From IMG/VR virus record IMGVR_UViG_3300040806_000692, positions 1 to 32,750 of that record: a stretch of 32,750 bases of DNA. The stretch is one strand, 5' to 3'. This stretch comes from a virus. Positions 669 to 25,188 of this stretch are shown in pieces (the stretch's first letter is position 1; every line of letters begins with the position of its first letter). Both the position numbers and the translations under genes were made by a program. The notes below the pieces were generated by a model. The model had not been told where the DNA came from, made no database searches, and saw only the letters and a list, made by a program, of their open reading frames with translations.

Positions 669-801
669 AACAACGTACGGCAAAGGTGACACACCACGGT
701 ACGTAGACAAAGAAAAATTCGACGATGCATTTGACCGGATATTCGGTAAGAAAGGGGAGACAAAGGAGAAGAAAGATGAGGATAATAACCCTCGACTTTG
801 A
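628..801 (+). CDS. Small basic conserved phage protein, 57 aa, overlapping both neighbours
   Basis: This frame starts at ATG 628 behind a good AGAGGA (614-619) and stops at TGA 799-801. It encodes a basic N-terminus (MNYRRPQGKQSMRRTTYGKG) and a FDDAFDRIFGKK segment followed by a charged tail. The FD-AFDRIFGKK pattern resembles small proteins seen just upstream of replication genes in other podoviruses (recollection, not checked). The gene shares 41 bases with the preceding gene and 26 with the polymerase gene, so all three are translationally interlocked. Function unknown. Confidence 0.7.
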   Translation: MNYRRPQGKQSMRRTTYGKGDTPRYVDKEKFDDAFDRIFGKKGETKEKKDEDNNPRL

Positions 802-2620: not shown

Positions 2621-2632
2621 ATGAGGTAGTTG

Positions 2633-3627: not shown

Positions 3628-5174
3628 TACCTGATAAGCAACAGCTTATTCTTGATAGCTCACTTAACGACTCTGTAGCAAAGTTTATACCACATGCGAA
3701 AAAGTTTACTCACGATGGTAAAGAACTACTGGCTGTTAAGTATGGTGTAGAAGAATCTATCGTGCTGAAGAACATGGGCTTTAGCATACCTGAGCCTATA
3801 CGCCACTATTACAGTTGGCCAGCAAGATTCGCACCGATGGAGCACCAGATAGATACAGCCGCGTTCTTGACTACACACAGACGTGCGCTGTGCCTGAATG
3901 CTCCGGGTACTGGCAAGTCCATTAGTTCTTTGTGGGCGGCGGACTTTTTGATAACTATGGGTGTGGCTAAGAAGGTATTGATCATAGCTCCGCTGTCGAC
4001 ACTGAAACCTGTATGGGGTTCTGAGATACGGCACCACATGCCACACAGACAGTTCGAGCTATGCGTAGGAACTAGGAAGAAAAGATTAGAGCTAATTAAC
4101 AAGCCGGGATTACAGTATCTTATTATCAACCACGACGGCTTCACTGGTTTGGCTGGCGAACTGAATGACTTTGACGTTGTTATCTATGACGAGGCTACAG
4201 CACTTAAGACACCGTCGTCGCAACGTTACAAAATATTTAGTAAGTGGATGAACGCCAACAAGCCGTGGCTATGGTTGCTAACGGGTACGCCGATATCGCA
4301 GTCGCCTGCTGACGCTTGGACACTAGCGAGGCTGGTTGAGTCGCCTACTGTAGCAAGAAGCTACACAGCGTTTAAAGATACTGTAATGAAGAAGGTAACA
4401 CAGTTTAAGTGGATACCGCGCGAAGATGCGCTGACTACATGTAAGAAAGTATTGCAGCCGTCGATACGGTTTAGCCTAGATGAGTGCAAGGATCTACCAG
4501 ACACAAACTTTGTAGGGCGAAAGACCGAGCTAACGCCGCAGCAACAGAAAGCGTTTAAGGACATGCAGGACAAAGCGGTGACTACATTTGCGGAAGGCCA
4601 AGTGACCGCTACCAACACAGCCGTGATGTTGTCCAAGCTGTTGCAGATATGTTGTGGTGTTGTCTATAGCGAGGACAGTACAATTGCCATAGACTGCGCT
4701 GATAGGTATAATACCCTTACTGAATTATTAGACGAGATTGGAGAGAAGGTAATCGTCTTTGTGCCCCTGAAAGGCGTGCAGAAATGGCTTATAGAGAAAC
4801 TGGAAAAAGATAAATACGATTGCGCGTTAGTAAACGGTGACGTTGGCAAGAAAGAACGCGACGAGATATTTTACAACTTCCAGCACACAGATAAGCATAA
4901 AGTATTGATTGCACACCCAAAGGTTGCGGCTCACGGTCTGACACTGACACGAGCAAAAGACATTATTTGGTACGCTCCGATCTACTCTCTCGAACAGTAT
5001 GAACAGGCTAACGCCCGAATCAGACGTTTGAGTACGGAAGGCAAAACCACTGTATGGCACATTTACTCAACCAAATTCGAAGCGGAGCTTTATCGTCGTC
5101 TTCGCGCGAAGCAAAGCACGTTAGCCGAGTTCTTAGACTTGGTGCGTGGAATAAACAACGACGATATAAACTAG
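3618..5174 (+). CDS. SNF2-type superfamily 2 helicase/translocase
   Basis: A 518-aa ATPase with all main SF2 motifs: Walker A NAPGTGKS (K100), Walker B YDEAT (D191-E192), motif III LTGTP, motif V around AAHGLTLTRA, and motif VI QANARIRRLS (Q463, R467, R470). Spacing and motif VI are SNF2/RapA-like rather than DnaB-like, so it is expected to translocate on dsDNA or remodel replication forks. I prefer ATG 3618, which overlaps the previous gene by ten bases, over GTG 3606; neither has a strong ribosome site, so translation is probably coupled. It sits between the VRR-NUC nuclease and the putative SSB gene. Confidence 0.93.
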   Translation: MLVVPDKQQLILDSSLNDSVAKFIPHAKKFTHDGKELLAVKYGVEESIVLKNMGFSIPEPIRHYYSWPARFAPMEHQIDTAAFLTTHRRALCLNAPGTGKSISSLWAADFLITMGVAKKVLIIAPLSTLKPVWGSEIRHHMPHRQFELCVGTRKKRLELINKPGLQYLIINHDGFTGLAGELNDFDVVIYDEATALKTPSSQRYKIFSKWMNANKPWLWLLTGTPISQSPADAWTLARLVESPTVARSYTAFKDTVMKKVTQFKWIPREDALTTCKKVLQPSIRFSLDECKDLPDTNFVGRKTELTPQQQKAFKDMQDKAVTTFAEGQVTATNTAVMLSKLLQICCGVVYSEDSTIAIDCADRYNTLTELLDEIGEKVIVFVPLKGVQKWLIEKLEKDKYDCALVNGDVGKKERDEIFYNFQHTDKHKVLIAHPKVAAHGLTLTRAKDIIWYAPIYSLEQYEQANARIRRLSTEGKTTVWHIYSTKFEAELYRRLRAKQSTLAEFLDLVRGINNDDIN

Positions 5175-5183
5175 GAGACTACT

Positions 5184-5567
5184 ATGAACTATGAACAGGC
5201 AGCTGACCGCTACCTTAAAGTTCGCCGTGAGCTAGACGAAATCGAGCGAGCATACAAGGAACAAAAAGCGGCAGTGAAAGAGAAACTCGTAACACTTGAA
5301 AACTGGTTTACAGCTAAGGCACAAGAGGATGGTCTATCGTCTATCAAGACTTCTGCTGGCACTGCATACTGGTCAACGCATCACTCGGCAACTGTCGGGT
5401 CGCGTGAAGATTTCTTTGCGTTCTGCAAGGATAACGATGCTTGGGACCTACTAGAAGCGCGTGCATCGAAGGTTGCTGTAAAAAGCTATATCGAGGCTGA
5501 AGGCGCTCCACCACCCGGGGTCAACTACAGCTCTGTAAATGTGTTTAATTTCCGTAAATCTAAATGA
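5184..5567 (+). CDS. Conserved phage replication-module protein, 127 aa
   Basis: Starts at ATG 5184 after AGGAG (5173-5177). Residues 1-50 form a charged coiled-coil helix (YLKVRRELDEIERAYKEQ). A compact domain follows, with SIKTSAGTAYWSTHHSATV, a DAWDLLEARASKVAVKSY segment and the C-terminal pattern PPPGVNYSS. I recognise this architecture from many phages, encoded next to SSB-like and polymerase genes, but it has no established function that I know. Some relatives are compared with host-nuclease inhibitors of Gam type because of the N-terminal helix; that link is speculative. Confidence 0.8.
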   Translation: MNYEQAADRYLKVRRELDEIERAYKEQKAAVKEKLVTLENWFTAKAQEDGLSSIKTSAGTAYWSTHHSATVGSREDFFAFCKDNDAWDLLEARASKVAVKSYIEAEGAPPPGVNYSSVNVFNFRKSK

Positions 5568-5577
5568 GGATAAGTCT

Positions 5578-6468
5578 ATGACTACTATGAATGTACCTGC
5601 TCACATCGCTGCGCGTATTGCTGAGCGTAAAAAGAACAAGACGAACACACTCGCTTCGTCTATCGTAGGTAACCAACAAGGCGCTTCGTTGCCGCGTATC
5701 AGCACTCGAGCTGGGCGGTTCCGCTTAGTAGAGGGTGGCGTAGAAAGCACCGTTGGTACTTCACTTGATGTTATCGTTGTAGGCGTTAACCCTAAAGTAT
5801 CTAAGGTATTTTACGGACGCGCCTTTGACCAGTCGGCAGAGAATCAGCGTCCTGACTGCTTCTCGAATGATGGCGTTGCTCCTCACTCGTCTGTAGAAAG
5901 TCCAGTGTGTAGTAATTGCGCTAGTTGCCCACACAACGTCCTCGGCTCAAAAGTACTGCCATCTGGTGCTAAGTCTAAGATGTGTGCGGACCAACGCCAT
6001 CTAGCCGTTGTAGCTGCGGCTGACCCAAGCAAGGTATACAGCCTAACCATTCCTGTGTCTGGCATGAAGGCTTTGCGCGAGTACTTTGCTGACCTAGCTA
6101 ACTACGGCATTGGACCAGAAGAAGTAATCACTGAGCTTGGCTTTGACGACAATGCGAGTTATCCTAAACTTGTATTCAAGCAGAAAGACTTCATCACAGA
6201 AAAGGCGATACCTGTGGTTGAGAATTTGCTTGAATCTGATGAGACGAAGGTAGCGATTCGCTTGCTAGACCCCACTGCAAACACTACGGCACTGGCGGCA
6301 CCTGAGCAGAAAGCCACGCTAGAAGCACCTAAGCCAAACCCAGAAGATGATGAAGCATCAGCGTATGAAGAAGAACCAGTCGTTGCCAAGAACACAGAGA
6401 AGCCGAAGGTAGAACCTGTGAAGGCATCAGATGAACTGGCCGCTAAGCTAGACAGTCTCTTCGACTAG
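5578..6468 (+). CDS. Putative single-stranded DNA-binding protein
   Basis: A 296-aa protein with a basic N-terminus (AARIAERKKNK), a beta-rich core containing a cysteine cluster (C94, C111, C114, C117, C136) and a long Pro/Glu/Lys linker ending in DELAAKLDSLFD. An acidic tail with a terminal Phe-Asp is the hallmark by which phage and bacterial SSBs dock partner proteins. Its position between the SNF2/coiled-coil genes and the primase-helicase matches SSB-like proteins (DUF2815-type) in comparable phages. The Cys cluster may bind zinc, as in T4 gp32. ATG 5578 has GAGGA at 5566-5570. Followed directly by a strong terminator. SSB identity is inference. Confidence 0.6.
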   Translation: MTTMNVPAHIAARIAERKKNKTNTLASSIVGNQQGASLPRISTRAGRFRLVEGGVESTVGTSLDVIVVGVNPKVSKVFYGRAFDQSAENQRPDCFSNDGVAPHSSVESPVCSNCASCPHNVLGSKVLPSGAKSKMCADQRHLAVVAAADPSKVYSLTIPVSGMKALREYFADLANYGIGPEEVITELGFDDNASYPKLVFKQKDFITEKAIPVVENLLESDETKVAIRLLDPTANTTALAAPEQKATLEAPKPNPEDDEASAYEEEPVVAKNTEKPKVEPVKASDELAAKLDSLFD

Positions 6469-6474
6469 ATACGT

Positions 6475-6494
6475 GCCCCCTTCGGGGGGCTTTT
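6475..6494 (+). terminator. Intrinsic terminator with UUCG tetraloop
   Basis: A perfect six-base stem GCCCCC/GGGGGC closed by TTCG and followed by TTTT, six bases after the stop of the putative SSB gene. Only 16 bases separate it from the primase-helicase start, so it should reduce transcription of that gene unless there is read-through or antitermination. Confidence 0.9.
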
Positions 6495-6510
6495 AACCAG
6501 AGGACAAATT

Positions 6511-9483
6511 GTGGATATACTTAATTTTCTTACGCGCGTCTGTCCAAGACAAGACGAAATAGTAATAACAACACTAGATAAGAAAAGCGACGGCAACACA
6601 ATTTTTTGGAACAGGGGGTCATACAAGTACAGTGAGCTACAGGAAGCCGCTGACATAATCCCAGAATGGGATGCTAACCCCTCAACCACGGTTTACTTCA
6701 GCATTGGTGCATTTGCAGACCATATCGAAGAGGTCGATGGGAAACAAAAAATTCGTAGAACCCAAGCTAACGCTACTTACTTCCGCGTACTGTGCTTTGA
6801 TTTAGACTGTGGTGAAGGCAAGCCATACGCTACTTTGGAAGCCGGGCTAGAAGAGCTTGTTCGTGTTGTTAAAGAACTGAAACTACCGAAGCCGCTAATC
6901 GTAGGTTCTGGTGATGGTGCACACGTTTACTGGGTACTTGATAAAGACATTGAGAAGGATCTGTGGGTAGAAGTATCCACTGCGCTTAGTCATGCACTAG
7001 CGCAACACGGCCTTGAGATTGATGTTTCTAAGATCTTTGACCCGTCTATGGTATTGCGGCCTGTGGGTACTTACCACAAGAAGCGTGAACCATGGAAAGA
7101 AGTAAGCCTTCTTGTAGACGATGGCCAAGTGCACGACATCTACATGCTATATGGCAAGGTTAAAGACTACGCGCCGAAGGTTGCACCGCCCAAGCCCAAG
7201 AGCAAATTGTTAGACGCTGTACTTAGTACGCCACTTGATAGTGATCTGGATGTAATGTCTATCGGCGAACACTGCAATCAGGTGCGAGCGCTTATCGAGT
7301 CTGGTGGTGTTACAGATGCGGCAGGGAATCCAGTGGATGAGCCAATGTGGCGGGCGTCGTTGGGCATTGCTAAGTTCGCTAAGGATCAAGAGGAAGCCAT
7401 ACTGTACTTAGCCGGTGGGCACCCAGAGTTTGACCTAGACGAGAACATGAAGAAGATCCAAGGCTACAAAGGCACTGGACCGACCAACTGTTCTACGTTT
7501 GCTCAGCTATGTCCGAAAGGCTGTGAAGGCTGTCCATATCAGGGCAACAAAACATCACCTGCTCAGTTAGGCGGTGTAGACCAGATCGTTGTACAAGAAC
7601 CCGTACATATAGATACCGGCGTGCCGGAGCCCATGCCAGCTGAGAAGAAAATAAAGCTACCAGATTTCTACAAGGTAAATGGTGGCAAGCTCTATAAGGA
7701 AGTAGAGAAGTTTGATGATGACGGCAACCCATATAAAGACATGGAGCTGATATCAGACAGGCTAATGTATATACGCGGCATATACTACGATAGAGAGGCG
7801 AAGACTACTTCGTTTACTTTGGCAGTACACTACCCTAACGACCGTGGTTGGGTAGAAGAAGACCACCCAATAGAAAAGATATCTATGGTGGGTAGGGACT
7901 TTGCAAACTTTTTAGCTAACTTGCAAATATTTTGCGTGCGGTCATCCGCACAACAGGAGAGATTGAGGATCTATTTGATGGACTATTTAAGTATGGTGCA
8001 GCAACAATCAAGTACAGGCTACGACTACAAGTCATTTGGCTGGCAAGAAGACGGGTCATTTATATGCGGTAACAAAGTAATAAATCCGCCACATGGTAAC
8101 AATGAGAAACGGTTGGTCGGGGGAGCAGCACAACTTTCTTCCCACATAAAGCAGAGTGGTGAGCGCGATAAGTTTATTGAAGCGATGTCAATGTTAGATA
8201 AGTACCCCGGCACTGGGACAGTACGATCTTGTGTATTATTGGGGCTTAGCGGCATTCTTGCCAAGTACTTGGGTAACGGCTCTAGTATGATATCGGTGTA
8301 CTCAACTCTTACTACAACAGGTAAGACTGCGGCACTGCTTTCTGTTAATAGCCTGTTCGGTGAGCCCAAACCACTTCTTTCATCTAGACGAGATACCAAT
8401 ACGGCAACGTTCATGGTTCGAGGTGCGCTTAACAACATACCAATGACCATCGACGAGTTCACAATGATTGATGCACGTGAGGTTGCAGACCTTGTTTATT
8501 CATTCAGTGAGGGTCGCGATAAGAAGAGCGCCACACAGACTCGTCAGCTTAGGGATGCGGCAACGTGGGAAGGGCCAACGTTCGTATCAGCGAATACTTC
8601 AGTCCTAGATAAAGTGTCAGAGGCTAAGGCTCAGAGCGATCCACTACGTGTGCGCGTGCTAGAACTACCACAGAACGACCGACGCTTTGTTAGTGTATTA
8701 GATGTAGACGGGCACAAAATTGCACACAAGTATATTGACTTGCTACTAGAGAACTACGGATTCGCTATGCCAGAAATTGCGCAGGCTGTGTGCGACTTAG
8801 GTGGCCCAAAAGACGTGGCGAAGAAAGCACGGGAAGATTTTATACGCACATTTAAGTTCGAGTTTGAGGCTCAGGAACGTTTCTATGAGTCTATGATTAT
8901 AGCTTCTTGGGGCTTAGGTAAGATCGGGCGTGCGTTAGGCTTGCTACCGTTTAATATAGAAGACACGATAAACCACATGCTTAGAGTAGTAGACGATAGC
9001 CGCAAGCGCAGTGAGGCTTCAGTGGTAGACGCTATCGACGTTATTGGTCAGTTTATGCACGAGAAGAACGATCAGCGTATCGAGGCATACAAGCAGTACG
9101 GCGACAAGAAGTTCCAAGTGCATATGCCAGCCCCCACTAGGGCCGTGATGCGTCAAGAGATCGTTACAGACGGTAGTGGGAAGCTGATGCCCGGAAGTTT
9201 GTTAGCCATTAACAGGGCTATATTTAAGAAGTACCTGCGTGATACTAACGACGCAGAGGATCGGGTACTGCGAGAACTTAGCTCAATGGGCGCGCTACTG
9301 GATGAGAACCGCAGAGTTACAATGTTCAAGAACTGCCAAGGTCGCAACCCGTCGCAGACATATTGCATAGTTGTTAACTTAACTCACCCACGTTTTGCAG
9401 ATATAATTGACGAACTGGATGGCAAAGAGACTAACAAACTCGTAGCTGCCGTTAACAATGTAGATCAAGCGGAGGGAGCGTAA
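6511..9483 (+). CDS. AEP primase fused to a DUF927/VapE-like helicase
   Basis: A 990-aa two-part replication protein. Residues 1-220 look like an archaeo-eukaryotic primase: D97-L-D99 (CFDLDC), H138 in SGDGAHVYW, and R183 in DPSMVLRPVGTYHKK. A cysteine cluster follows (C327, C334, C338, C341). From about residue 380 an SF3/DUF927-like ATPase carries GYDYKSFGW, Walker A TTTGKT (K605) and Walker B MTIDEF (D648-E649), then SEGRDKKSA. It likely primes and unwinds DNA, replacing separate DnaG/DnaB or T7 gp4 functions. GTG 6511 is the start, with AGAGGA at 6499-6504. It is preceded by a terminator and translationally coupled to the HNH gene. Domain names are by motif only. Confidence 0.88.
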   Translation: MDILNFLTRVCPRQDEIVITTLDKKSDGNTIFWNRGSYKYSELQEAADIIPEWDANPSTTVYFSIGAFADHIEEVDGKQKIRRTQANATYFRVLCFDLDCGEGKPYATLEAGLEELVRVVKELKLPKPLIVGSGDGAHVYWVLDKDIEKDLWVEVSTALSHALAQHGLEIDVSKIFDPSMVLRPVGTYHKKREPWKEVSLLVDDGQVHDIYMLYGKVKDYAPKVAPPKPKSKLLDAVLSTPLDSDLDVMSIGEHCNQVRALIESGGVTDAAGNPVDEPMWRASLGIAKFAKDQEEAILYLAGGHPEFDLDENMKKIQGYKGTGPTNCSTFAQLCPKGCEGCPYQGNKTSPAQLGGVDQIVVQEPVHIDTGVPEPMPAEKKIKLPDFYKVNGGKLYKEVEKFDDDGNPYKDMELISDRLMYIRGIYYDREAKTTSFTLAVHYPNDRGWVEEDHPIEKISMVGRDFANFLANLQIFCVRSSAQQERLRIYLMDYLSMVQQQSSTGYDYKSFGWQEDGSFICGNKVINPPHGNNEKRLVGGAAQLSSHIKQSGERDKFIEAMSMLDKYPGTGTVRSCVLLGLSGILAKYLGNGSSMISVYSTLTTTGKTAALLSVNSLFGEPKPLLSSRRDTNTATFMVRGALNNIPMTIDEFTMIDAREVADLVYSFSEGRDKKSATQTRQLRDAATWEGPTFVSANTSVLDKVSEAKAQSDPLRVRVLELPQNDRRFVSVLDVDGHKIAHKYIDLLLENYGFAMPEIAQAVCDLGGPKDVAKKAREDFIRTFKFEFEAQERFYESMIIASWGLGKIGRALGLLPFNIEDTINHMLRVVDDSRKRSEASVVDAIDVIGQFMHEKNDQRIEAYKQYGDKKFQVHMPAPTRAVMRQEIVTDGSGKLMPGSLLAINRAIFKKYLRDTNDAEDRVLRELSSMGALLDENRRVTMFKNCQGRNPSQTYCIVVNLTHPRFADIIDELDGKETNKLVAAVNNVDQAEGA

Positions 9484-11257: not shown

Positions 11258-14200
11258 TTACTCCTCTATCTTGTAGATCTTGCGAACTTCTTCCAGCATG
11301 CGAAGCTCTAGGTCTTGGATTTCTTCGTATAAGCCTTCGTAGTCTGGGCTACCACTACGCATCTCTTCTCGCTGCAACTTCCTAATAGCGGCTTTATACT
11401 CGCGGCCAACTATAGACTCACGTATCTGGCGATGAGTGGCTTCCTCCGCCATGTTGTAGTCGACCACCTTTAGGCCGAACACCTGAGCAGCTAGGGCTTT
11501 AGCTAGGTCAATGTCATTACCAACTATGTTCACATCACCAGTAGCAGCTGCCCATACCTTGTCGCGCTTAACTGACTGTAGCCAAGGTGGCACAAACATA
11601 TCAGACAGACCTTCGAATATCTCACCAGCCTTACTGATACCAGATTCCGTAGGCTCGTATAGAGACTTGCCAGTGTAAGGATCAGTGCCTGTCATAAGCA
11701 TAATTAAACCATCTACTAGCGGGCCACCGGGCTTGAAGCCTTGCGGATACCCTTCGAACCCTAAGAATCCTGTAGGCGTAGGTGCGAAAGTAGATACCAG
11801 TGGTATGTAATCACCGAGGCGGTAGTACACAGGGTTCTCATCACCACCCAAGAAAGGTATGCGGATGTGCGTTCGTAAACCAAAAGTACGCTCGTCTAAA
11901 CGCTCTGGGCCAAACTTACGCATCTCATCATCGTCACCTGCAAGTCCAGCAGCGACAAGGTCTAGTATGGTGTACGCGATCATCACGTTAGCAATTTGCC
12001 AAGGCTTCTCTACAGCAATACGTCCTATAAGGGGCATCGCTGCGTAAGTCCACGATATGAACGGGAACACAGACTGACGAGCTGCTTTAACCGCAGGTGC
12101 GTCGATATCATAGTCTAAGAACATTTTAAGACCAGCACGACCAGCAGCAGCTCTGTTCTCTGGGGTAGGGTCACCACCTAGTTCGTCGAGTTTGTTCATG
12201 TAAGCAGCTAAGCGGAATGCGTTATCTTCTGCGGCATACAGCTGGGTAGTAAACTCGTCGTAGTTGTTCCAAAAGCCTTTGACACGCTTGGCCAGCGTAG
12301 ACTTACCCATCTCAGCGAAGAGCATGTGGCGAACTTTGCCTTCTGTCGTGTCAGACTCACCCTCTTTCAGTGCGTCAACGTGCGCTTGGTGCAATACGTT
12401 TTTGATTTCTACTGATGAGAACGTACCCAACATAGCACCAGACTCGTAGAAGTCTTGGATAATGGCAAGCTCGTTGGCTCTAGCAGAGTCCTTGAACCGC
12501 TCTGGGTGTACCTCAAACTCCCACAAAAGCTTAGCTGCTTTGGCTACCGTCTTCATGGGTATACCGTGCATCATTGCTAGAGTAATGTTGGACGCCACGT
12601 TAGTTATGTGGGTGCCGGGGTTCTGTACAGTCTTCGTCTTCTTGAAGAACGTCATACCTTGGTTTACCCAGCGCATGTTAACTAGCGGAGATCTGTCGGA
12701 CATATCGTTCATAGCATGCCAAACAGGTGCATGGATAATCTTTCCAGCTAGCGGGCCCCACAACGTCTCATTGTCAGAAACTTTAATCCAGTGCTGGCTA
12801 GATCGCGTAGAAGCTTTAATTGAAGGACTTTTCAGCTCAGATGCTTCAGTCACTTGGATATTGGGGTTGTTGTGGCGTGCTCTAATCTGCTCCACGCTGT
12901 TGTATACGACTGGCTCACCATCGTAGTTAGCTAACCCTTGCAAGAAAGACCTAGATGCTGAGAAGTTAGACAGCGCTGCCATGGTGTTAAGCATAGCTAC
13001 AGTCAGTTTCTCTACGTTGTTGTCGTCTAGCTGTTCTTTAAAGTTACGTACTTCTCTAAAGTTATACTTGCCACGCGCAAAGTTTACTAGCTCAACAGGT
13101 GCAGAGTCGTGCACTACATATGGGCTACCTATATTTAGGTTATCGCGGCCTTTAGAATCAACAATGTCCTTACTTGCTATAAGTTTATAGTCTTTGCCAC
13201 TTATACCATCGGTTACTGTAATTAAGTACAGCGGCTCATCTAAGATAGGATCACCATTTTGGTCTAGACGAAACAAATCTTTGTTGTTGTCTATGTCCGC
13301 TTGATCAATTCGGATAGACGCCGACTTAGCTAAGTCTATTAAACTACGCTGGCTTAGGTTGTGATTGGATACATCCTTGCCAGAGGCCACATATAGCAGA
13401 GAGTCAGAGAACTTCTTCCCGGCAAACAGTGCTTGTTGATCTTCTGGCAATTGCTCGACAAAACTGTTGTAGTGGTTTAGCAAGCTATCAGCCATCAACT
13501 TAAGCGCAGCTGAGTCTTTGTACTGCTCAATAGCCTGCACGTTGTCACCATCCAAGTACTCTAGAATAGCTCGACGACGATCAACAGACTGATTCTCAAA
13601 ACCCTTAGTTATCAGGCGATTAACAATAGTTAATGGAGTGTTACGAATAACTTTCCACATGTCCATAAGATCGCTAAGCGCAGGAGCCACACCAAAACGC
13701 GTATTGAACGTGCTTATCGTCTTTTCCAGCATCGGCATTTCTTTGCGGATATAGGAAGCTGCTTTCTTAAACTGTTCTGTCGTCTTGTCTATTGCAGTTG
13801 TGACGCCCAAGTTCTCAATAAGCATGCGAGTTACGTTAGCACCTACATAGGCTTCACGTTTTGCTTGCTGTTCAGCGTTTAGTTCTACACCTTTGCCAGT
13901 GATATCTACATTGTTTGACTGAAACACCTTAGCGTTAAGTTGGCCAGCTATAAAGTCTGCTTTGGAAGGCTCTTCCTGCAAGCTGCTTTCAAGCAGTCGG
14001 TATGTGTTATCAAGCACACTGTTAGCGGCTGTGCCTTTAACACCAAGAATACGAGCAACCAAGTTGGCTATACTGCTCCACAAAGTGTCTAGGATATTTT
14101 TCCAGCTCTTCATGCTAGCAGTTTCTGGTTGGCTGATTTCTTTGAGCATGTCTTTGAAGTCGCGAAGCGTAGTACCATATGAAACAAGTTCCAGTACAGC

Positions 14201-17200
14201 GTCATCTGGATTATCACTAGCTTTAAGGTCGCGGAGGATTTGCAGTACGCTGTTGATGCGGTCCTTGCTAGCCTCTGGCATTTTTAAAGAGGCCACGAAC
14301 TCAGGCGTTGCTGTGCTAAGGACATTATCTAAAGTATCCCGCAGCTCGACAACAGCATCCGAGTCAGGGTTCTGCTGCACAAACCAAGCTATGGCCGCGT
14401 GCAAAGTTTCGTGGAGGATTTCTTCTTCAGATGCTTCTTTGCGAATGAAAATGGTGTTTAGTTCGCGGTCGTAATACGGATTGCCTTCAGTAATAAACTC
14501 AACTGTGGGCGTGAACCCAGCTGCCTGCATGCCTTCAATGCTGTACTTAATAGCAGAGCCAAGCATGATCACGTAAGGAGAGCGAGTACCCTCTCGGGTT
14601 GTAATAGTGTTAAGTAGGCCGTAGACACCATCTTCTGCAACAGCACGTTCTAGTCTAGATGTGGATGACTTTTCTGATCGCTTGAGGACATCCCTAATTG
14701 GTCTAGGAGATACACGGTCCAAAGTTTCTGTTAGGTCGCCGTCACGATAGGCAGCAAACGCCGAAGATAACTCAGTATCTATGGTAGCCAATACATCGCG
14801 CATGGACATGTATCGGTTGTTTTTGGCACGGTTAAACTTCTCGCTGTACTTAGCTAGCTTCTTGGGGTTTGATACGAACGTACCAGTTTCGTCGCGGTAT
14901 CGTTTGGTTAGTGCAATCAATGCTTGCACGTTAGCTTCGCCACCTGCTTCACTAATAAGATTTTCTACTTGCGAACGCAACGTTCTTTGGTATTCCATTG
15001 CCTGACGTGCATTAGTATCTAGCGTACTAACATTACGCTTAACTTCTTTTTGGTTACCATTTTTGTCGAAAGCTTGTTCTCTACCATAAAAAATGTTCTT
15101 GCCTTTGTCGTCCATTTTCTTTTTCGTGGCGACTACTTCAATTAGCAACTGATATATACGGCGCATCTTAGCTGCTTCTTTAGCTGTACGAACCGCATCT
15201 ACAGCAGCGGTCTGTTTACCGTCGGCACCGACCTGTTGAATTGTTGGAATAGGATCAAAGTCGGTAGAACGTATCATACGAGCGATACCAGCTAACATAA
15301 GCGGATCAAAAGTTACACGTCCTACAGGCTTACGACCACCAGATTCTACTTGCGCTTCGAGCCTAGAACTTTCTTCGTTCACGTCGTTTATGGCAGCTTG
15401 AACTATGTCGTCATCAGTCGCCAACTCAGGCGTCGCTTGAGCAGTTTGTGGTGCCTCTTCCATGACTGGCGTCGTATCTACGTCAGCAACAACTTCTTCA
15501 GTAGCTTGTACTTCCGGTGCCTGTTGTTCTTCGATATCTAAACCCAGCTGCTCAGCTACATCTTCTTGTGCCTCTGCAACTGGTTCGGCGACTGGCTGAG
15601 TTAAGTCTGTAGCTTCTCTAAGTTGTTGACGCTGTTGTTGAAACAGTACTTCTTCCGGTATAACTTTAGAAAGAACGTCAATTTGCTCTTGATCTAGTGA
15701 CGTAATGTCGTCGCCTTCTTGCAGTGCTACTAAAGCCGAAGAGAGTAAACCACGCTCTCTTAGTAGGCCTGTTTTTTCAGCCGCCTTGGATAATGTAGCG
15801 GCTTCCGCCTCAAGAGTTTGTTGTTCTTGGCGTAAAGCGGCAATGTCTTTAGAGTACTTAGACTTCATCAAACTAGCTAGGCCGGGGTTGGGTATTGGCT
15901 TCGCAGCTTCAGCTTCGATTGCAGCTATATCCTCATTAATAACGCCTACCCTGTCTGATATCTCTGCGACTCTTTTAGCAGCGGAGGCGGAAGCTGCGTT
16001 AGTAGTGCGGTTCTTTCTTACACCAGTTTTTATTTCGTCTAGACGGTTTTGTACGGCAGCGACAGCAGAGGTTCTGGCTTCTTCGTCCGTTATGAAATCA
16101 AGTGTAAACTGGCCTTCATCTTCTAACTGCGGCTGTCCTACTGGCTGTTCTTGCTCTACGTAATCTGGTTCACGGTACTGGCTTCGTCTGTATGCAGGTG
16201 AATCGTACTGCGAGTAGTCTGTATCGCCCTCTAAATCTATATTTTGTTGTGCACCCGCGCCACGCAAACTAGCAGGTAAATCATACTGTGAGTAATCAGT
16301 TTCTGTCTCGCCGACCTCTTCCTCTACTGGTTTAGGCTGCTGAGTAAGGTCAGCGCCTTCGGATGCAGGATTGTATTTACGCAAAGCGCCACCAGCACCA
16401 CCAAGGCCACCACCAACTATACCCCCTGCGACAGCCGCGTTAAGACGCATAGACTGCTTTTCTTCCTCAGTCAGGTTAGGGTTCATAGATATTTCAAGTT
16501 CAGTTTGGCCAAGCTCAGTTAAGGCTTCTCCAGTGCCTCCAGTAGCAAAACCTTTCCCTGCTCTAGTTACGACACCGCCCTTGAAACCAGCTCCAGTACG
16601 AAACAGTTTGCCGATAGCAAGCGGGGTTAAGGATTCCAAAAGAGCGTATGGCACAGACTTGCCAGCTATATCAACAAGATCCCCGCTACTAACGTAGCCA
16701 TCAGCTTCGCGAGCAGACTCATACAAAGAGCCTACACCAACACCGTAGCCAGCAGCCACACCTAGTGCTGGATTAATTATAGCGGCCCCAGTGAGACCGG
16801 CAAGCATAGGCCCTTGTTTCGCGATTTGGTAGCCAACATACGGCAATGCCGTACCTAGCGTAACGTCTTCTACGCGCTCAAGCTCTGGGTTACCGGCAAG
16901 CATGCCTTCATACTGTTGTTGCTTAGCTTTACCAGCTAGATATTCCTCAGTGTCGCGAGCGCCCAAAGCAGCAGCACCGGCAGCAGCAGCGCTAAGACCT
17001 AAGCCCTGAACCATATCTATGCCAGAACTAAAACCAGCTGATACGGACTTACCTCGTCCCGTTTGTACCCCAAGAAGTTCAGCTACATAGTATGGGTCTT
17101 GGCCAGTACTATTGCTGTATTCAACTATTAATTGCTCGTCCGATACGCCCTGTAGGTGCTTAGGTGCAGTACTGCGAAGCTGATCAAGGTTATATATGCC

Positions 17201-17206
17201 AGCCAT
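11258..17206 (-). CDS. Giant internal virion / polyvalent ejection protein with zincin motif
   Basis: A 1982-aa protein. The N-terminus (SDEQLIVEYSNSTGQDPYYV) resembles the start of large phage ejection proteins. Gly/Ala-rich hydrophobic stretches lie near residues 65-85, 125-165 and 250-275, followed by a Gln/Glu-rich coiled-coil region (about 365-600). H932-E-T-L-H936 is an HExxH zinc-peptidase motif in a domain also containing YYDRELNTIFIRKEAS; E954 is a possible third ligand. The C-terminal third, with FPFISWTYAAMPLIGR near residue 1710, recalls large polyvalent protein-associated domains such as LPD38. Likely packaged in the capsid and injected with the DNA. Strong AGGAG before ATG 17206. 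No lysozyme or transglycosylase motif seen. Confidence 0.85.
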   Translation of the reverse strand: MAGIYNLDQLRSTAPKHLQGVSDEQLIVEYSNSTGQDPYYVAELLGVQTGRGKSVSAGFSSGIDMVQGLGLSAAAAGAAALGARDTEEYLAGKAKQQQYEGMLAGNPELERVEDVTLGTALPYVGYQIAKQGPMLAGLTGAAIINPALGVAAGYGVGVGSLYESAREADGYVSSGDLVDIAGKSVPYALLESLTPLAIGKLFRTGAGFKGGVVTRAGKGFATGGTGEALTELGQTELEISMNPNLTEEEKQSMRLNAAVAGGIVGGGLGGAGGALRKYNPASEGADLTQQPKPVEEEVGETETDYSQYDLPASLRGAGAQQNIDLEGDTDYSQYDSPAYRRSQYREPDYVEQEQPVGQPQLEDEGQFTLDFITDEEARTSAVAAVQNRLDEIKTGVRKNRTTNAASASAAKRVAEISDRVGVINEDIAAIEAEAAKPIPNPGLASLMKSKYSKDIAALRQEQQTLEAEAATLSKAAEKTGLLRERGLLSSALVALQEGDDITSLDQEQIDVLSKVIPEEVLFQQQRQQLREATDLTQPVAEPVAEAQEDVAEQLGLDIEEQQAPEVQATEEVVADVDTTPVMEEAPQTAQATPELATDDDIVQAAINDVNEESSRLEAQVESGGRKPVGRVTFDPLMLAGIARMIRSTDFDPIPTIQQVGADGKQTAAVDAVRTAKEAAKMRRIYQLLIEVVATKKKMDDKGKNIFYGREQAFDKNGNQKEVKRNVSTLDTNARQAMEYQRTLRSQVENLISEAGGEANVQALIALTKRYRDETGTFVSNPKKLAKYSEKFNRAKNNRYMSMRDVLATIDTELSSAFAAYRDGDLTETLDRVSPRPIRDVLKRSEKSSTSRLERAVAEDGVYGLLNTITTREGTRSPYVIMLGSAIKYSIEGMQAAGFTPTVEFITEGNPYYDRELNTIFIRKEASEEEILHETLHAAIAWFVQQNPDSDAVVELRDTLDNVLSTATPEFVASLKMPEASKDRINSVLQILRDLKASDNPDDAVLELVSYGTTLRDFKDMLKEISQPETASMKSWKNILDTLWSSIANLVARILGVKGTAANSVLDNTYRLLESSLQEEPSKADFIAGQLNAKVFQSNNVDITGKGVELNAEQQAKREAYVGANVTRMLIENLGVTTAIDKTTEQFKKAASYIRKEMPMLEKTISTFNTRFGVAPALSDLMDMWKVIRNTPLTIVNRLITKGFENQSVDRRRAILEYLDGDNVQAIEQYKDSAALKLMADSLLNHYNSFVEQLPEDQQALFAGKKFSDSLLYVASGKDVSNHNLSQRSLIDLAKSASIRIDQADIDNNKDLFRLDQNGDPILDEPLYLITVTDGISGKDYKLIASKDIVDSKGRDNLNIGSPYVVHDSAPVELVNFARGKYNFREVRNFKEQLDDNNVEKLTVAMLNTMAALSNFSASRSFLQGLANYDGEPVVYNSVEQIRARHNNPNIQVTEASELKSPSIKASTRSSQHWIKVSDNETLWGPLAGKIIHAPVWHAMNDMSDRSPLVNMRWVNQGMTFFKKTKTVQNPGTHITNVASNITLAMMHGIPMKTVAKAAKLLWEFEVHPERFKDSARANELAIIQDFYESGAMLGTFSSVEIKNVLHQAHVDALKEGESDTTEGKVRHMLFAEMGKSTLAKRVKGFWNNYDEFTTQLYAAEDNAFRLAAYMNKLDELGGDPTPENRAAAGRAGLKMFLDYDIDAPAVKAARQSVFPFISWTYAAMPLIGRIAVEKPWQIANVMIAYTILDLVAAGLAGDDDEMRKFGPERLDERTFGLRTHIRIPFLGGDENPVYYRLGDYIPLVSTFAPTPTGFLGFEGYPQGFKPGGPLVDGLIMLMTGTDPYTGKSLYEPTESGISKAGEIFEGLSDMFVPPWLQSVKRDKVWAAATGDVNIVGNDIDLAKALAAQVFGLKVVDYNMAEEATHRQIRESIVGREYKAAIRKLQREEMRSGSPDYEGLYEEIQDLELRMLEEVRKIYKIEE

Positions 17207-17225: not shown

Positions 17226-18893
17226 TCACATTCCGATGTAAGGGCTTAGTCCACGCTGTCTTCTTGTGTTGTAGTAGCGTGACGCATAGTTTTGTCTCGC
17301 TCTTTCGCGAACTTCAGCAGGTGCATACCTGTCGTTCATAACGTTTTCTAAGTCGCTAAGTTCGACATCTGGACTATCTAGTACGGTTAAATCTTCCATT
17401 AATCTGGCGTATTTAATTTCGCCTTCCGTAAGTTTAGTAGCTTCTGTTCTCGAAGCTTCCTCAGCTGCGGCTCGCTTGCTTGTTGTGCTTGGTAAAATGT
17501 CAGACAAACCGCCGCCACCGCTACCTTGTGTGTTAACATAATTACCACTCCAACCACCAAGCGGAGAGCTAATACCTAGTTGCATGCGCAGTTGCATTAG
17601 TTTTTCTTCATCTCCCATAAGGTGTGGGTTCGCCTCTAAAAATCCAGCGAATAGCTCGTTCTTTTCACTAGTAGATTTGGCTCTAGCTATATCTGCTGCG
17701 GCTTTAGCTTTGGTATTCTCTATATACTGCCCAATCTGGAATGGATTTTTAGTAAAGCCTTCTTGGTACTGTTTAGCGTAATTTCGGACATCTTCTATGC
17801 TGTTAAATTGCTCTAGCGTTCTGTCTCCATAAGCTAACTCAAATGCACCAGTGGGTTCGCCGGTCTCTGGGTCTCTGATCTGCACTAGTCTAGTTTCTAT
17901 GCCATCACTATAATCTGGATCAGCAAAGCTTTGTAGTACTTCATTCCAGTTAGTAGCCTCTTTGGCTATATCACCATCAAAATCTGTGTTAAGTGCTGCT
18001 GTTATTGGACTGGTAGCGCGCTGCACTATTTTGCCAGCTATTACGTCATTGATACCATTCTGCGTGTAATATTCGTCTGTAGCAGCAGTAACCGCCGCCA
18101 TACGCATAGCATTGTTTTCTTCACCGGGATACTTAGCTTCTATCTCAGTTAGTATTTCATCTACGTTTTTACCCTGACGCAATCCTTGTTTAAATAGTTC
18201 CTTACCACTAGTTACAGCTTGTGCGGTATCTCTATCTTCGGTAAATGCATTTAGCCTAGTGGCCATGTTTTTAATGGTGGCGGCAGTCTCTTTGGCCAAA
18301 CGATCTTGGTTATCAATTAGTACATCTATTTTATCCTGCGCTTGTTCTTCAGAAACTCTAGCCGAACGGACTTGCTCTCCAAATGTCTTTGTAAACTGAT
18401 CATTCAACGCATCGAATTTCTTAACCGCTAAATCATACTGGCGATTGGCTTGTTCTTCCGCGGCCATAGATCGCTCCATTTCTAGAGCCAGTCTGGGATC
18501 ACCGAACTTGCGATAAAGCCCTATCTGTTTCATGCGATAGTCGCGATCAGACATTGGTGACGGTGCTGATACCGGGATAGGTTCTGGCTTTGCACCAAGT
18601 GCTTGGGCAGCCATAGTGGGTTGTTGTGCAACCGGGCTCATCGCAGGAGCTGGGCCACCAAGACCTAGCGCAACGTTAGCTGGTGATTGCATCCCTGCCT
18701 GAACCGGAGCCGCTGACTGAAGAGGTGCGCCAGTTAGTCCAGCTGTTTCTTCAGCTTGCTCATAAGGCTGCTGGGTTTGGGTGTACTCGTTTTCTAAATT
18801 AGCCAGCTCATCTCGCAGCATGCGCTCGTCACGCATTTCTTTAGCTGTCCTAACGGCAGATAGCCCCGCCTGAAATCCTGATGCAAAACCCAT
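17226..18893 (-). CDS. Putative internal virion protein, 555 aa
   Basis: Starts at ATG 18893, overlapping the stop of the S74 protein gene (TAATG). Residues 1-55 are a charged helix (RTAKEMRDERMLRDELANLE). Then comes a Pro/Ala/Gln-rich linker (60-115), a long helical region (120-250) and a mixed C-terminal half with a Gly-rich segment (GSGGGGLSD). No enzyme motif or membrane segment is seen. Its position between the S74 protein and the giant ejection protein matches the middle internal core/ejection protein of podoviruses (the place of T7 gp15), which suggests a role in DNA delivery. Sequence alone does not prove that. Confidence 0.7.
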   Translation of the reverse strand: MGFASGFQAGLSAVRTAKEMRDERMLRDELANLENEYTQTQQPYEQAEETAGLTGAPLQSAAPVQAGMQSPANVALGLGGPAPAMSPVAQQPTMAAQALGAKPEPIPVSAPSPMSDRDYRMKQIGLYRKFGDPRLALEMERSMAAEEQANRQYDLAVKKFDALNDQFTKTFGEQVRSARVSEEQAQDKIDVLIDNQDRLAKETAATIKNMATRLNAFTEDRDTAQAVTSGKELFKQGLRQGKNVDEILTEIEAKYPGEENNAMRMAAVTAATDEYYTQNGINDVIAGKIVQRATSPITAALNTDFDGDIAKEATNWNEVLQSFADPDYSDGIETRLVQIRDPETGEPTGAFELAYGDRTLEQFNSIEDVRNYAKQYQEGFTKNPFQIGQYIENTKAKAAADIARAKSTSEKNELFAGFLEANPHLMGDEEKLMQLRMQLGISSPLGGWSGNYVNTQGSGGGGLSDILPSTTSKRAAAEEASRTEATKLTEGEIKYARLMEDLTVLDSPDVELSDLENVMNDRYAPAEVRERARQNYASRYYNTRRQRGLSPYIGM

Positions 18894-19861
18894 TATAGTG
18901 ACTCCTCTGTGGCACCTACTTCTTCCATCTGGATACCTAGCGACTCATAGTCTACAGCGAAGTAGCCGTTATCCATCTCAATCACAGCTTCTGGGTAACG
19001 CTCCATAACCTCGTCAGCCATCACACCTTCAAACACACGGTCATCGCCGATGTAGTTAAACTGGTACTTGGTAAGGTCTAATTCTGGGTATTCGCCAACT
19101 GCGATAATATTCTCTTTCAAGCGACGGTCAGAAACTGCGCCATATACGCCTAAGCCAGCACCGAGGGCGGTACCCAACATCTCTCCCTGAGTCGCCACGC
19201 CTTGCATGTACGCTTGGTTCTGCATATTCAGCATATTAGCCTGAGATGAAGCCGCTTGGCCTAAGCCTTGCATGTACATTGTTCCGGGCTGTTGCGCAGT
19301 ATTTATGCCAGCAGATCCAGCACCCGTTGCACCTGAGTAAGCCTGCAAAGCTGTAGTTGCAAGTGGGTTACCTAAACCTATGGCAGCAGCTTGCAGTGCC
19401 CGACCCTCTTGGCGAGCAGATGTTCTAGCTCCAGTCATAGCGGCAGCGCGTTGCGCAGATTGTTCTAGTAGTGCAGCCCTGTCAGCGCCACGAGCAGCGC
19501 CAGAATTAGGGTTAACGCCACGAGCAGCTAAGCCACGACGTTGTTGTGCTTGCAGGTTTTCAAAAGCCCTACCAGATGCTGCCGCAGCTTGACCAGCCAA
19601 CTCTTGGCGTCTTGCGTCTGTGTTGAAAGCTTGGGCTTCTGCTATAAACTGATCTTCAAGTGGCCTATACAACCCAAGCAACCGCTCTCTGTCCTGTTGA
19701 GCGAAATCCATTTGCTGCTGCTGTGCGGCAATCTGAAGTCCGGAAATCTCTTGTGCTATGGGCAGCATGTCTGCATATTGCTGCTTACTGAATGCTAACT
19801 GCTCTCTAGAGATTGCAGCTAGCTCCTTGTAATTCGGTGCCTTAGAACTTTTACCGCCCAT
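18893..19861 (-). CDS. Internal virion protein with C-terminal S74 autoprocessing domain
   Basis: A 322-aa protein. Residues 1-240 are Ala/Gln-rich and helical (REQLAFSKQQYADMLPIAQE), with a GVNPNSG loop known from podovirus internal/DNA-transfer proteins. At residue 244 begins SDRRLKENI, the signature of the intramolecular chaperone (peptidase S74) domain, with S244-D245 at the presumed cleavage point, followed by FEGVMADEVMERYPEAV and VDYESLG. The domain is usually known for trimerising and then releasing tail spikes. Here it caps an ejection-type protein, as in some other podoviruses. AGGAGGAA precedes ATG 19861. Confidence 0.88.
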   Translation of the reverse strand: MGGKSSKAPNYKELAAISREQLAFSKQQYADMLPIAQEISGLQIAAQQQQMDFAQQDRERLLGLYRPLEDQFIAEAQAFNTDARRQELAGQAAAASGRAFENLQAQQRRGLAARGVNPNSGAARGADRAALLEQSAQRAAAMTGARTSARQEGRALQAAAIGLGNPLATTALQAYSGATGAGSAGINTAQQPGTMYMQGLGQAASSQANMLNMQNQAYMQGVATQGEMLGTALGAGLGVYGAVSDRRLKENIIAVGEYPELDLTKYQFNYIGDDRVFEGVMADEVMERYPEAVIEMDNGYFAVDYESLGIQMEEVGATEESL

Positions 19862-19864
19862 CTA

Positions 19865-20287
19865 TTATTCCTCCTGTAGCCATTTACAATTTTCGGGCCA
19901 CAAAACTAGAATCATCATATCGGCACCGGGAGCGCCGTCTTTCATTACAAATTCTTCTACGAAGCCGAGCTTTTTGTCGAATGCAATCGTGGCTGGTTCG
20001 TCGGTTGGAACCATACCTGTCAATCTTTTTAGTCCGCACTGGATAAATGCATAGGATGACACGACCTTAAATAACGGTATGATTAGCTTAGTTCGTTTCT
20101 TTATAGCGATGTGTGCAGTTGCGTTAGCACCGTTGAAGTTGTTTACGACTACGCCAGCGGCTACCTCACCATTCACTTCAGCACCGAAAGCGTAAAAACT
20201 ACCCCAGTCACCAGTCTGACCGACTTGTTCAGCGACCCATGCACCGACCCGCTCTTTGTCATACAGAATTAAGCTAGAATATGTCAT
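19865..20287 (-). CDS. GNAT-like acetyltransferase-fold protein
   Basis: A 140-aa protein with a GNAT-like pattern: a central strand with FGAEVNGEVAAGVVVNNFNG, a helix with KLIIPLFKVVSSYAF, and the late motif ATIAFDKKLGFVEEF, typical of the N-acetyltransferase fold. Proteins of this type often sit beside internal virion genes in podoviruses, where their substrate is unknown. The classical acetyl-CoA loop (Q/R-x-x-G-x-G/A) is not obvious, so catalysis is uncertain. It is separated by only three bases from the S74 gene and is expected to be expressed late. Confidence 0.75.
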   Translation of the reverse strand: MTYSSLILYDKERVGAWVAEQVGQTGDWGSFYAFGAEVNGEVAAGVVVNNFNGANATAHIAIKKRTKLIIPLFKVVSSYAFIQCGLKRLTGMVPTDEPATIAFDKKLGFVEEFVMKDGAPGADMMILVLWPENCKWLQEE

Positions 20288-22437: not shown

Positions 22438-25188
22438 TTAAACGCTCAAGTTACCTAATTGAACACGCAAAGTTGAGTTTTGATCATATATCTTAATAGC
22501 GCCGCTAGAATCCATAAAGATGGAGTTAGCTGTCTCGTCATCCGTTGCTGATATGGCCAGCTGTTTTGATGTTATAGCATCAGCTCCTATCTGTGTGGCC
22601 GTGATTGTTTCAGCAGTTATTTTATCGGCGTCTAATGATCCGGCTGCTATACGCTCAGCAGATAAAAAACCAGTCGATATTTTCGATGCGTTAAGGCTAC
22701 TTACTTTGAGATCGGTGATAGCACCGTTGGCTATATTAGCAGTATCTACTGCTAGAGTTCCTATCTTAGCTGTGTCTATAGCGCCGTTCTTAATAAAAGC
22801 TTGGTCAATATAAACACCAGCAGGTACGGTAACGCCGTTAAGGGTAGTAGGAGTAGTGTTAACTATAAACGGTATGGAGTCTACATTACCAGAACCTATA
22901 GCGAAACGATCAGCCCTCACAATAAACTCAGAATAAGGAGTACCGTCTTCTCTAGGTGTGGAAGCTAAGCCAAAACCGGAAACATAACCATTGTTATCTA
23001 TTTTAACTGTAAACTGCGACTCTAAGCCGTCTACAGACTCTGCATTAACTTGAATAGCTGATGTGTGATCATTGACCGTAGAAGACAACGTGCTAACACT
23101 CTGGCTTAGGCTATTAATGCCTTGCTCAGTAACGGTAACCCTATTAGTTACAACGGTTACATTATTAGCGTTAGCAGCTATTTCACCATCATTTGTTGTT
23201 ATCTGGTTTTGTAGACCGACTATCAATTGGCCTTGCGAAGATATAGTACCTTCAGTAGCGTCAACACGAGAATCCAAAGCATTAACAGCAGAACTTGTAG
23301 CGCCTAGCCCTGTGACGGGGTCGTTAACTGTGTTATTCAGTACTGTAATAGCATTGCTGTTAGAGCTAATACTGCCTTCAGCAGATGTAACTCTGGTAGT
23401 AAGATCGTTTACAGCAGTCGATGTAGCAGATACGCCTGTTGTTGGGTTGTTGACTGTAGACTCAAGTGCTGTTATGTCTCCTTGTGCTACAGTTATAGAA
23501 TTGCCTTGAGCAGTAACCGTATTATTTAAATTAGATATAGCAGTGCCGTTTGCGCTAATGCTCGAATTAGCAGTAGTAAGGCCAGCACTTAGTGTGGTTA
23601 CGCTTGACTGCAAACTCCCTATATCATCGCCCTGACTAACAACAGTACTATTAAGAGTACTAATAGCCGAGCTGTTTGCGCTAATACCATTTTGAAGGTT
23701 GGTAACACTACCTTGCAGCGAAGTAACATCGGCCTGAATAGATCCGATCGTATTGCCTTGCGTAGTAACTGTGTTAGTTAGTGATGTTAGGGCAGAGCCT
23801 TGGGCGCTGGCTGTATTTTGTAAGTTAACTACGTCCGCTTCCAGAGTTACGATATCCGACTGTATGGCAGATATGCTGTTACCCTGTGTTGTAACAGTGT
23901 TAGTCAACGTGTTCAGCGCTGTCGCTGTAGCAAGTCTAGAAGACCCGTCTGGGCTAAACACTTCCCCTTCTAAAGAGGTTATATCGATCTGCACGCTAGT
24001 AATAGCGTTACCCTGAGTCTGTACTGTAGAAGATAGAGCTGATAGCGCACTCGATGTGGCGAGCCTACTTGATCCATCAGGGTTAAATACTTCGTTGTTA
24101 AGATCTGTAACGTCAGTAGATATCGAGGTTACCGTGCCGTTTAGGTTAATAACAGTAGTATCAAGTACGGATAGAGCAGCCGCTGTAGCAAGCCTACTAG
24201 ACCCATCACCATTAAATACTTCAACATCTAATGCAGTAATTGCCGCTTCGTTTGCTGCAATACGCGGATCTTCCAGCGATACCCACTCTAAACCGCTACC
24301 TTGGTCAATCCAAACGTACACTTTGTTGTTGTCATCGCTGTCATACCACCGAGAGAATTCTGCGATCGTGCCAACAGGATTATCTAGCGGGGCTGTAGCC
24401 TGTACGTAAACAGATGTTGTGCCAGCTACTAGATCGTTAATAGAAGACTGGATGTTGGATATGTTTGTGTTAATCGACGTAATACTATTGTTTAGCGACG
24501 TTATGTTGGTGTCGTTAGTATTTAGTCGTGTTACCAAGTTAGAGCCAGTGTAAGAGTCTACATACCCAGTAAACGTTTCTAGCGCCTCAATAAGATCAAT
24601 ACGTGTGTTTAAGTCGTTATACAGTTGCCCTTCTGTTATAGAGTCTGTAAGCGTTGTAAGTAGGAAATCAATATCAGGCGCTGTTTCAGCATATACACCA
24701 GAGACGGCGTTAAATGCACCGGCAACATCCAGAGTATTAACGTTTCTAGCCCAGTAATATCTACCCTTGCCGCCACCAACTTGATCATTAATAACAGCAG
24801 CGTTAGTAAGTCCGATAGGTTTAGCATTCGCCAGATCTTGGTATGGAGTCAAATCTTCGGGTGGCGACAATATGTCAAATGTATCGGAAGCCCATACCTC
24901 AGTGTAAGCATGGTTTGCGTAGTTAACTACATCCCACGTAATAATTATGTTTTGAAATGCGCCATCAGCAAATAAACCAGTAACTACTGGCGGTATGCCA
25001 TAGTCAGGGCCATCAATGCCAACGGGGTTATTATTCTCATCTATAAGACCGAGGTCACGAAGGCTTTGGTTAGTCAGATATCCACCAGTCCCTGCACCGT
25101 TAAGCACGTCACGAACGCGATCCAAAAATATGCGAACGTCTCTAGGTACCTGTGACGTAATTGTTGGTAACGATCTTCCGCTAGACAT
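22438..25188 (-). CDS. Central tail fibre/tip protein, coiled-coil with DUF1983-like C-terminus
   Basis: A 916-aa protein. Residues 60-180 contain a fibronectin-like segment (NIIITWDVVNYANHAYTEVW). Residues 180-715 are long stretches of Ser/Thr/Asn heptad repeats (NTVTTQGNSI type) typical of trimeric tail fibres, interrupted by three EVF-(N/S)-xDGSSRLAT units. From about 715, NNGYVSGFGLAS and SEFIVRADRFAIG match the DUF1983 region of lambda gpJ-like tip proteins. The end consists of ADKI/GAI-type short repeats expected to form a beta-helix-like fibre. It probably links tail tip to receptor binding. A GGAG site precedes ATG 25188. It overlaps the previous gene by eight bases. Confidence 0.8.
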   Translation of the reverse strand: MSSGRSLPTITSQVPRDVRIFLDRVRDVLNGAGTGGYLTNQSLRDLGLIDENNNPVGIDGPDYGIPPVVTGLFADGAFQNIIITWDVVNYANHAYTEVWASDTFDILSPPEDLTPYQDLANAKPIGLTNAAVINDQVGGGKGRYYWARNVNTLDVAGAFNAVSGVYAETAPDIDFLLTTLTDSITEGQLYNDLNTRIDLIEALETFTGYVDSYTGSNLVTRLNTNDTNITSLNNSITSINTNISNIQSSINDLVAGTTSVYVQATAPLDNPVGTIAEFSRWYDSDDNNKVYVWIDQGSGLEWVSLEDPRIAANEAAITALDVEVFNGDGSSRLATAAALSVLDTTVINLNGTVTSISTDVTDLNNEVFNPDGSSRLATSSALSALSSTVQTQGNAITSVQIDITSLEGEVFSPDGSSRLATATALNTLTNTVTTQGNSISAIQSDIVTLEADVVNLQNTASAQGSALTSLTNTVTTQGNTIGSIQADVTSLQGSVTNLQNGISANSSAISTLNSTVVSQGDDIGSLQSSVTTLSAGLTTANSSISANGTAISNLNNTVTAQGNSITVAQGDITALESTVNNPTTGVSATSTAVNDLTTRVTSAEGSISSNSNAITVLNNTVNDPVTGLGATSSAVNALDSRVDATEGTISSQGQLIVGLQNQITTNDGEIAANANNVTVVTNRVTVTEQGINSLSQSVSTLSSTVNDHTSAIQVNAESVDGLESQFTVKIDNNGYVSGFGLASTPREDGTPYSEFIVRADRFAIGSGNVDSIPFIVNTTPTTLNGVTVPAGVYIDQAFIKNGAIDTAKIGTLAVDTANIANGAITDLKVSSLNASKISTGFLSAERIAAGSLDADKITAETITATQIGADAITSKQLAISATDDETANSIFMDSSGAIKIYDQNSTLRVQLGNLSV
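23923..24222 (-). repeat. Three GSSRLAT coding repeats in the tail fibre gene
   Basis: Three related segments (about 24181-24222, 24053-24093 and 23923-23964) encode EVF-x-x-DGSSRLAT-x-x-AL. They are about 42-44 codons apart within the heptad region. The DNA copies are diverged. Likely structural breaks in the coiled coil. Confidence 0.75.

Follow-up and report, generated by a model that had tools for sequence, protein, structure and literature searches.

The polyvalent proteins described by Iyer et al. (2017; PMC5512222) are giant phage proteins that are encoded in virion gene clusters and have zincins as their commonest domain. The core of these metallopeptidases consists of an N-terminal helix, a three-stranded sheet and two C-terminal helices, the HExxH motif is followed by a Glu on the next helix, and the zincin can be combined with an ADP-ribosyltransferase (ART) domain, ART-PolyVal (PMC5512222). 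What the zincin does in these proteins has so far only been proposed in the literature examined. A HExxH domain, termed C1 (residues 2124-2375), is also part of the virion RNA polymerase (vRNAP) of phage N4, which is both packaged and ejected as a single polypeptide (PMC12633501). Among the ejection proteins of the T7 gp16 type, the 1337-aa phiKMV gp37 is the gp16 equivalent (PMC8954989).

The window analysed here is the 32,750-base IMG/VR record IMGVR_UViG_3300040806_000692 of an uncultured phage. It contains an open reading frame of 1982 aa on the minus strand (17206 to 11258), which starts with an ATG at 17206; the plus strand over 11258-17206 is non-coding and has many stops. The following features were assigned to this frame:

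11258-17206, minus strand: giant virion/ejection-type protein, 1982 aa (open reading frame and relatives)
16337-17206, minus strand: conserved N-terminal region, aa 1-290, with Gly/Ala-rich hydrophobic stretches at 63-81, 134-152 and 257-275 (conservation, hydropathy)
13982-14578, minus strand: predicted zincin-like metallopeptidase domain, aa 877-1075 (AlphaFold2 model and profile matches)
14399-14413, minus strand: HETLH (H932-E933-T-L-H936), predicted zinc ligands and general base (invariant in 71 sequences)
14177-14191, minus strand: E1006, the predicted third zinc ligand, to Y1010, within DAVLELVSYG (invariant in 71 sequences; model helix 185-197)
13940-13990, minus strand: site of the ART cassette of relatives, aa ~1073-1089, empty in the window protein (pairwise comparison)
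11261-13915, minus strand: conserved C-terminal module, aa 1098-1982, common to many polyvalent proteins (AlphaFold2 model, BFVD matches)
11939-12073, minus strand: most conserved hydrophobic segments, aa 1712-1756, SVFPFISWTYA...AYTILDLVAAGLAG (alignment conservation, hydropathy)

The HETLH motif, with YYDRELNTIFIRKEAS ahead of it (residues 911-926), lies where the initial annotation had placed it. It is the sole HE/HQxxH motif in the protein, for which the chance expectation from composition is 0.013. The giant protein alone gave no useful matches in Pfam, PHROGs, PADLOC or the PDB. None of the curated polyvalent domains in Pfam (ART-PolyVal, LPD) passed the cut-off, and neither Pfam nor PHROGs revealed a T7-like RNA polymerase module. 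The initial annotation had also seen no lysozyme or transglycosylase motif, and indeed no such family from Pfam or PHROGs matches, the N-terminal transglycosylase of the T7 gp16 type included; P22-type gp16s are likewise devoid of it (PMC8954989). The zincin is the only recognisable enzymatic domain.

Starting from IMG/VR relatives 28-72% identical to the window protein, further ones were collected by alignment-based scans, which yielded 79 loci via the C-terminal module and 80 via the zincin, with many contigs common to both; after removal of duplicates, 66 complete family members remained. HExxH is kept in all 66 complete members and loss of the zincin was never seen. This universality is not a selection effect, since the patterns of the C-terminal scan lie outside the zincin; the count of the third ligand among the zincin-scan loci is partly selected, because that scan used the motif AVLEL[VI]SY. 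All 71 aligned domain sequences, whose mean identity is about 33%, agree in H932, E933, H936, E1006 and Y1010. These residues make up five of the 11 invariant columns in this alignment, and T918, A1003, L1005 and T1013 are likewise among them. The spacing from H932 to E1006 varies between 62 and 85 residues across the family. The window protein contains 18 histidines, and only H932, H936 and H1547 are invariant in a six-sequence alignment.

A UniProt entry from an uncultured phage named "large polyvalent protein" (A0A6J7WQ13) shows 32-34% identity to the window protein. A tblastn search of 50,697 phage records with the window protein and those of L008, L009 and L147 gave no matches. Bacterial genome contigs gave no match to the C-terminal query and a single one (29%) to the zincin query, in a Zoogloea MAG. 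The matching contig (L177:5502-8666) carries a 1055-aa open frame with ETVLHEALHAALQ and is the sole bacterial-genome match to the zincin profile; judged from this similarity, Zoogloea is a possible hint to the host of the phage lineage. On the HExxH stretch of four relatives (L033, L095, L143 and L098), the Pfam family Tox-MPTase4 scored below cut-off (E 0.07-0.1). Residues 1-42 of the window protein (17206-17081, minus strand) are identical to the start of a relative (L014:54-179) and the downstream halves are only ~41% identical, which may reflect recent exchange or strong constraint.

For the zincin region (aa 817-1101) an AlphaFold2 model was calculated from the 71-sequence alignment, with a mean pLDDT of 85.9 and a pTM of 0.88. 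It shows a helix (model residues 61-79), three strands (85-89, 95-97 and 102-106) and two further helices, of which 111-129 bears HExxH and 185-197 bears E1006 and Y1010. This layout of N-terminal helix, three-stranded sheet, HExxH helix and Glu helix is that of the polyvalent-metallopeptidase core (PMC5512222), and the resemblance to such domains proposed in the initial annotation thus holds. Since the model puts both H932 and H936 on helix 111-129, it differs, as far as helix placement goes, from the arrangement that had been named as speaking against a zincin, with the two histidines off one helix. BFVD matches of the model are polyvalent proteins and virion RNA polymerases. Foldseek gave no PDB match at E ≤ 0.001, and VIA-align found anthrax lethal factor with Z ~6 (up to 6.3, the range 448-776 of the catalytic domain included) and PPEP-1 with Z 5, in a range (Z < 8) that can be chance. 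The likeness to these two proteases concerns the overall fold only, at ~10-15% identity, and the window protein differs from them in the position of the conserved Tyr, four residues past the Glu. The top VIA row, N4 entry 9pnt (Z 8.9), was set aside because the matched residues 2373-2599 lie past C1, unless the entry is numbered differently. Together, the invariant catalytic set, the model and the profile matches bear out the zincin fold: as judged from alignment and model, the middle domain is a zincin-like metallopeptidase by fold, which would be expected to bind zinc and to act as a peptidase.

The profile matches link the domain to two known virion proteins. N4 vRNAP (gp50) has HELVH at 2228, followed by NEFMAWG, and hhalign matches it with E 1.2e-4, whereas a shuffled copy gives 0.35. 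Its C1 domain and the window family share the arrangement HExxH-(82)-E, with E-F-x-x-W-G in N4 corresponding to E-L-x-x-Y-G, and the pattern D..TI(Y/F)I...S.E..HE..HA. In both cases the zincin sits inside a giant protein, and for N4 ejection is known (PMC12633501); in contrast to gp50, the window protein has no detectable RNA polymerase module, and hhalign detects no similarity between the two outside the zincin. The family profile also matches PDB chain 9sfn_G, a 1337-aa internal virion protein in the gp16 position that is matched to phiKMV gp37 by size only (E 0.0058, 138 residues aligned), with HEAVH and KELVAWG aligning to HETLH and LELVSYG. The contrast with T7 gp16 drawn in the initial annotation therefore stands for the transglycosylase and falls for the zincin as a unique feature, since 9sfn_G has a HEAVH domain. 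Pseudomonas phage F116 gp60 resembles the relatives in combining the zincin-type motifs DUF6782 (sub-threshold) and HEMIH (379) with a following ART-PolyVal in one protein, and tblastn matches it to relative L086 (28%). It differs from the window family by an LPD23 domain and two HExxH motifs, and its C-terminal module is not homologous by hhalign.

The C-terminal module (aa 1098-1982) was modelled with a pLDDT of 78 and gave 55 BFVD matches at E ≤ 0.001, many of them named large polyvalent protein; other names are zeta toxin, ART-PolyVal, RelA/SpoT, methylase, lytic transglycosylase and vRNAP. Many of the latter are long with a low TM-score and make the kinship less firm than the first-named ones. 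A VIA search with this model returned only uninformative long-helix matches, and the LPD38 model, run on the records, was equally uninformative, having no matches in records or controls. LPD-annotated proteins have this module as well. We do not claim C-terminal homology to the giants of cultured phages or to N4, because the hhalign scores are weak and near those of shuffled controls.

Some orthologues carry a second enzymatic domain. Pfam ART-PolyVal is present above cut-off in L033 and L086 (E 1e-21 to 1e-22). A profile built from three ART domains detected ART in 15 of the 66 complete members, mostly ~160 aa behind HExxH, with weak per-domain matches in L047, L055 and L100; diverged ARTs may be missed in this count, and the contigs are metagenomic. 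The window protein and its closest kin lack ART. Pairwise comparison revealed that the insertions occupy one homologous site just behind the zincin, corresponding to window aa ~1073-1089. Four pairs were compared in this way: L113/L123 are 93% identical elsewhere and differ by a 243-aa insert, L116/L020 are 98% identical with a 238-aa insert, L033/L104 91% with 306 aa and L069/L098 90% with 160 aa. Mapped on the tree of the 66 C-terminal modules, the ART label changes 13 times and clusters no better than shuffled labels. This corresponds to at least 13 gains or losses of ART, even between proteins that are 90-98% identical elsewhere. We found no description of such single-site ART turnover in the literature searched, which lay mainly outside subscription journals.

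The giant protein is encoded within a phage virion/late gene cluster. Upstream, on the same strand, lie the 555-aa gene, the 322-aa gene, the GNAT gene, tail fibre genes and the gene for the phrog_511 protein:

17226-18893, minus strand: 555-aa neighbour, kept in place with fast-diverging sequence (synteny)
18893-19861, minus strand: 322-aa virion structural/DNA-ejection-like protein with S74-type end (phrog_8003, 2.7e-38; phrog_4287, 2.8e-5; syntenic)
19865-20287, minus strand: GNAT-type acyltransferase of the same cluster (phrog_4470; syntenic)
25181-26779, minus strand: phrog_511 internal virion protein/tail component, a lineage marker (PHROG match)

The 322-aa gene is located 1.3-2.9 kb upstream of the giant gene in 55 of 77 loci, and 48 of the 77 have GNAT within their ejection cluster, as do phages LASTA, JC1 and Itty13. 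The 555-aa gene is detected by phmmer in only 4 of 77 loci despite its kept place. Klebsiella phage LASTA and Burkholderia phage JC1 each encode a giant, annotated as PLxRFG-domain or DarB-like antirestriction protein, that comes after GNAT, a gene that is either S74-type or virion-associated, and intervening genes; Pfam domains in such cultured giants are LPD3, LPD38, LPD39, LPD22, LPD23 and ART-PolyVal. The window order (GNAT, S74/ejection-like gene, ~500-aa gene, giant) is thus that of cultured podoviruses with polyvalent giants, and these neighbours support its place in an ejection-protein cluster, in line with the reading as an ejection protein in the initial annotation. As in the T7 gp16-type proteins, the giant is the largest and last gene of the cluster. 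A separate lysozyme-type endolysin of 140 aa is encoded at 26915-27337. Replication genes (DNA polymerase, exonuclease, helicase, primase; 725-9483, plus strand) converge on the virion genes (11258-32662, minus strand); an endonuclease VII/HNH gene separates the two blocks, and most relatives have this convergent layout. Stx-converting phages are among the relatives of a neighbouring gene; the comparison drew on other phages. Limnohabitans phage DC33 (PQ492659.1; L167, L172), which has a 39-kb genome and a 3125-aa LPD22 and ART-PolyVal protein, is filed as Inoviridae, a label that looks wrong; Limnohabitans, like Zoogloea, is no more than a lead to the host. Aeromonas phage phiARM81mr (L168:15828-17461) and Vibrio phage 1F273_PE002 (L173:15666-17317) carry a reverse transcriptase amid tail genes; these are annotated as retron-type and DGR-like and are accompanied by a small Avd-like or 23S-IVS-like gene.

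Since zincins in polyvalent proteins are already known (PMC5512222), we regard the giants as a new family of a described kind. Of the several disparate enzymatic domains of polyvalent proteins, zincin and ART are found in orthologues and the zincin alone is recognised in the window protein, which also differs from those of Iyer et al. in giving no Pfam LPD or ART match and in its uncultured lineage. Because the zincin set is invariant in more than 70 relatives and ART lies behind it in some, we infer that the giant is very probably injected with the phage DNA. Taken together, sequence and model make it likely that this uncultured podovirus ejects a polyvalent protein whose zincin is active and works as a peptidase after entry. 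The giant would be the final and largest of the ejection proteins; it would be stored in the head and exit together with the DNA, and its N-terminal and C-terminal modules would serve assembly, passage and membrane anchoring. H932, H936 and E1006 would hold Zn2+ and E933 would activate the water for peptide cleavage. In the infected cell, the substrate of the zincin may then be a host protein or, in cis, the giant itself or the proteins ejected with it.

It is quite possible that the zincin acts as an autoprotease. Cleavage of the giant or of its ejection partners, either inside the head or following entry, would then release the N-terminal region, the ART (in members that have it) or the C-terminal module. 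Such processing in cis has been proposed for polyvalent metallopeptidases, with P1 DdrB processing as precedent, and has at least as much support in the literature as the host envelope or defence target suggested in the initial annotation (PMC5512222). The constant position of the ART cassette directly behind the zincin, beside the poorly conserved aa 1100-1160, fits this reading. However, N4 vRNAP travels as one chain with the same domain (PMC12633501), and release of ART cannot be the sole job of the zincin, because the catalytic residues are also unchanged in the 51 members in which no ART was detected. That these residues persist regardless of cargo could also mean that the zincin, once injected, cleaves a protein of the host or of its defences at an early stage of infection. 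We hold this to be possible at a more tentative level: the fold class includes the host-cutting proteases lethal factor and PPEP-1, and a host target has been raised before (PMC5512222), but typical arms-race effectors behave differently from this domain, which varies slowly and stays in one position. A metal site that serves folding or encapsidation and does no cutting is unlikely; in N4, encapsidation depends on the region that contains the domain, and the protein stays unprocessed (PMC5512222, PMC12633501), but a purely structural site would not need the general base E933, which is invariant in 71 of 71 sequences. That HETLH arose by chance in a helical protein with no relation to zincins, as the lack of a curated family match to the window protein alone might suggest, is extremely improbable and was rejected, since the catalytic residues are conserved in 71 of 71 sequences, the AlphaFold2 model has the fold, and 9sfn_G and N4 match the profile.

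Returning to the zincin as a peptidase active after entry, it might, though this is rather doubtful, form the constant centre of a delivery system with exchangeable cargo. Its one slot would take up and lose ART cassettes (~160-306 aa in the compared pairs) at a high rate, with the content freed by the protease, so that closely related phages would inject the protein with or without an effector. The family offers a clean test of what zincins do in polyvalent proteins, with a universal catalytic set and near-identical natural pairs (L113/L123, L116/L020) that differ by a cassette of ~240 aa. One domain ties together N4 vRNAP, a solved internal virion protein of the size of phiKMV gp37 and a large group of uncultured podoviruses, and what stands out most in the finding is a constant zincin followed by an exchangeable cassette.
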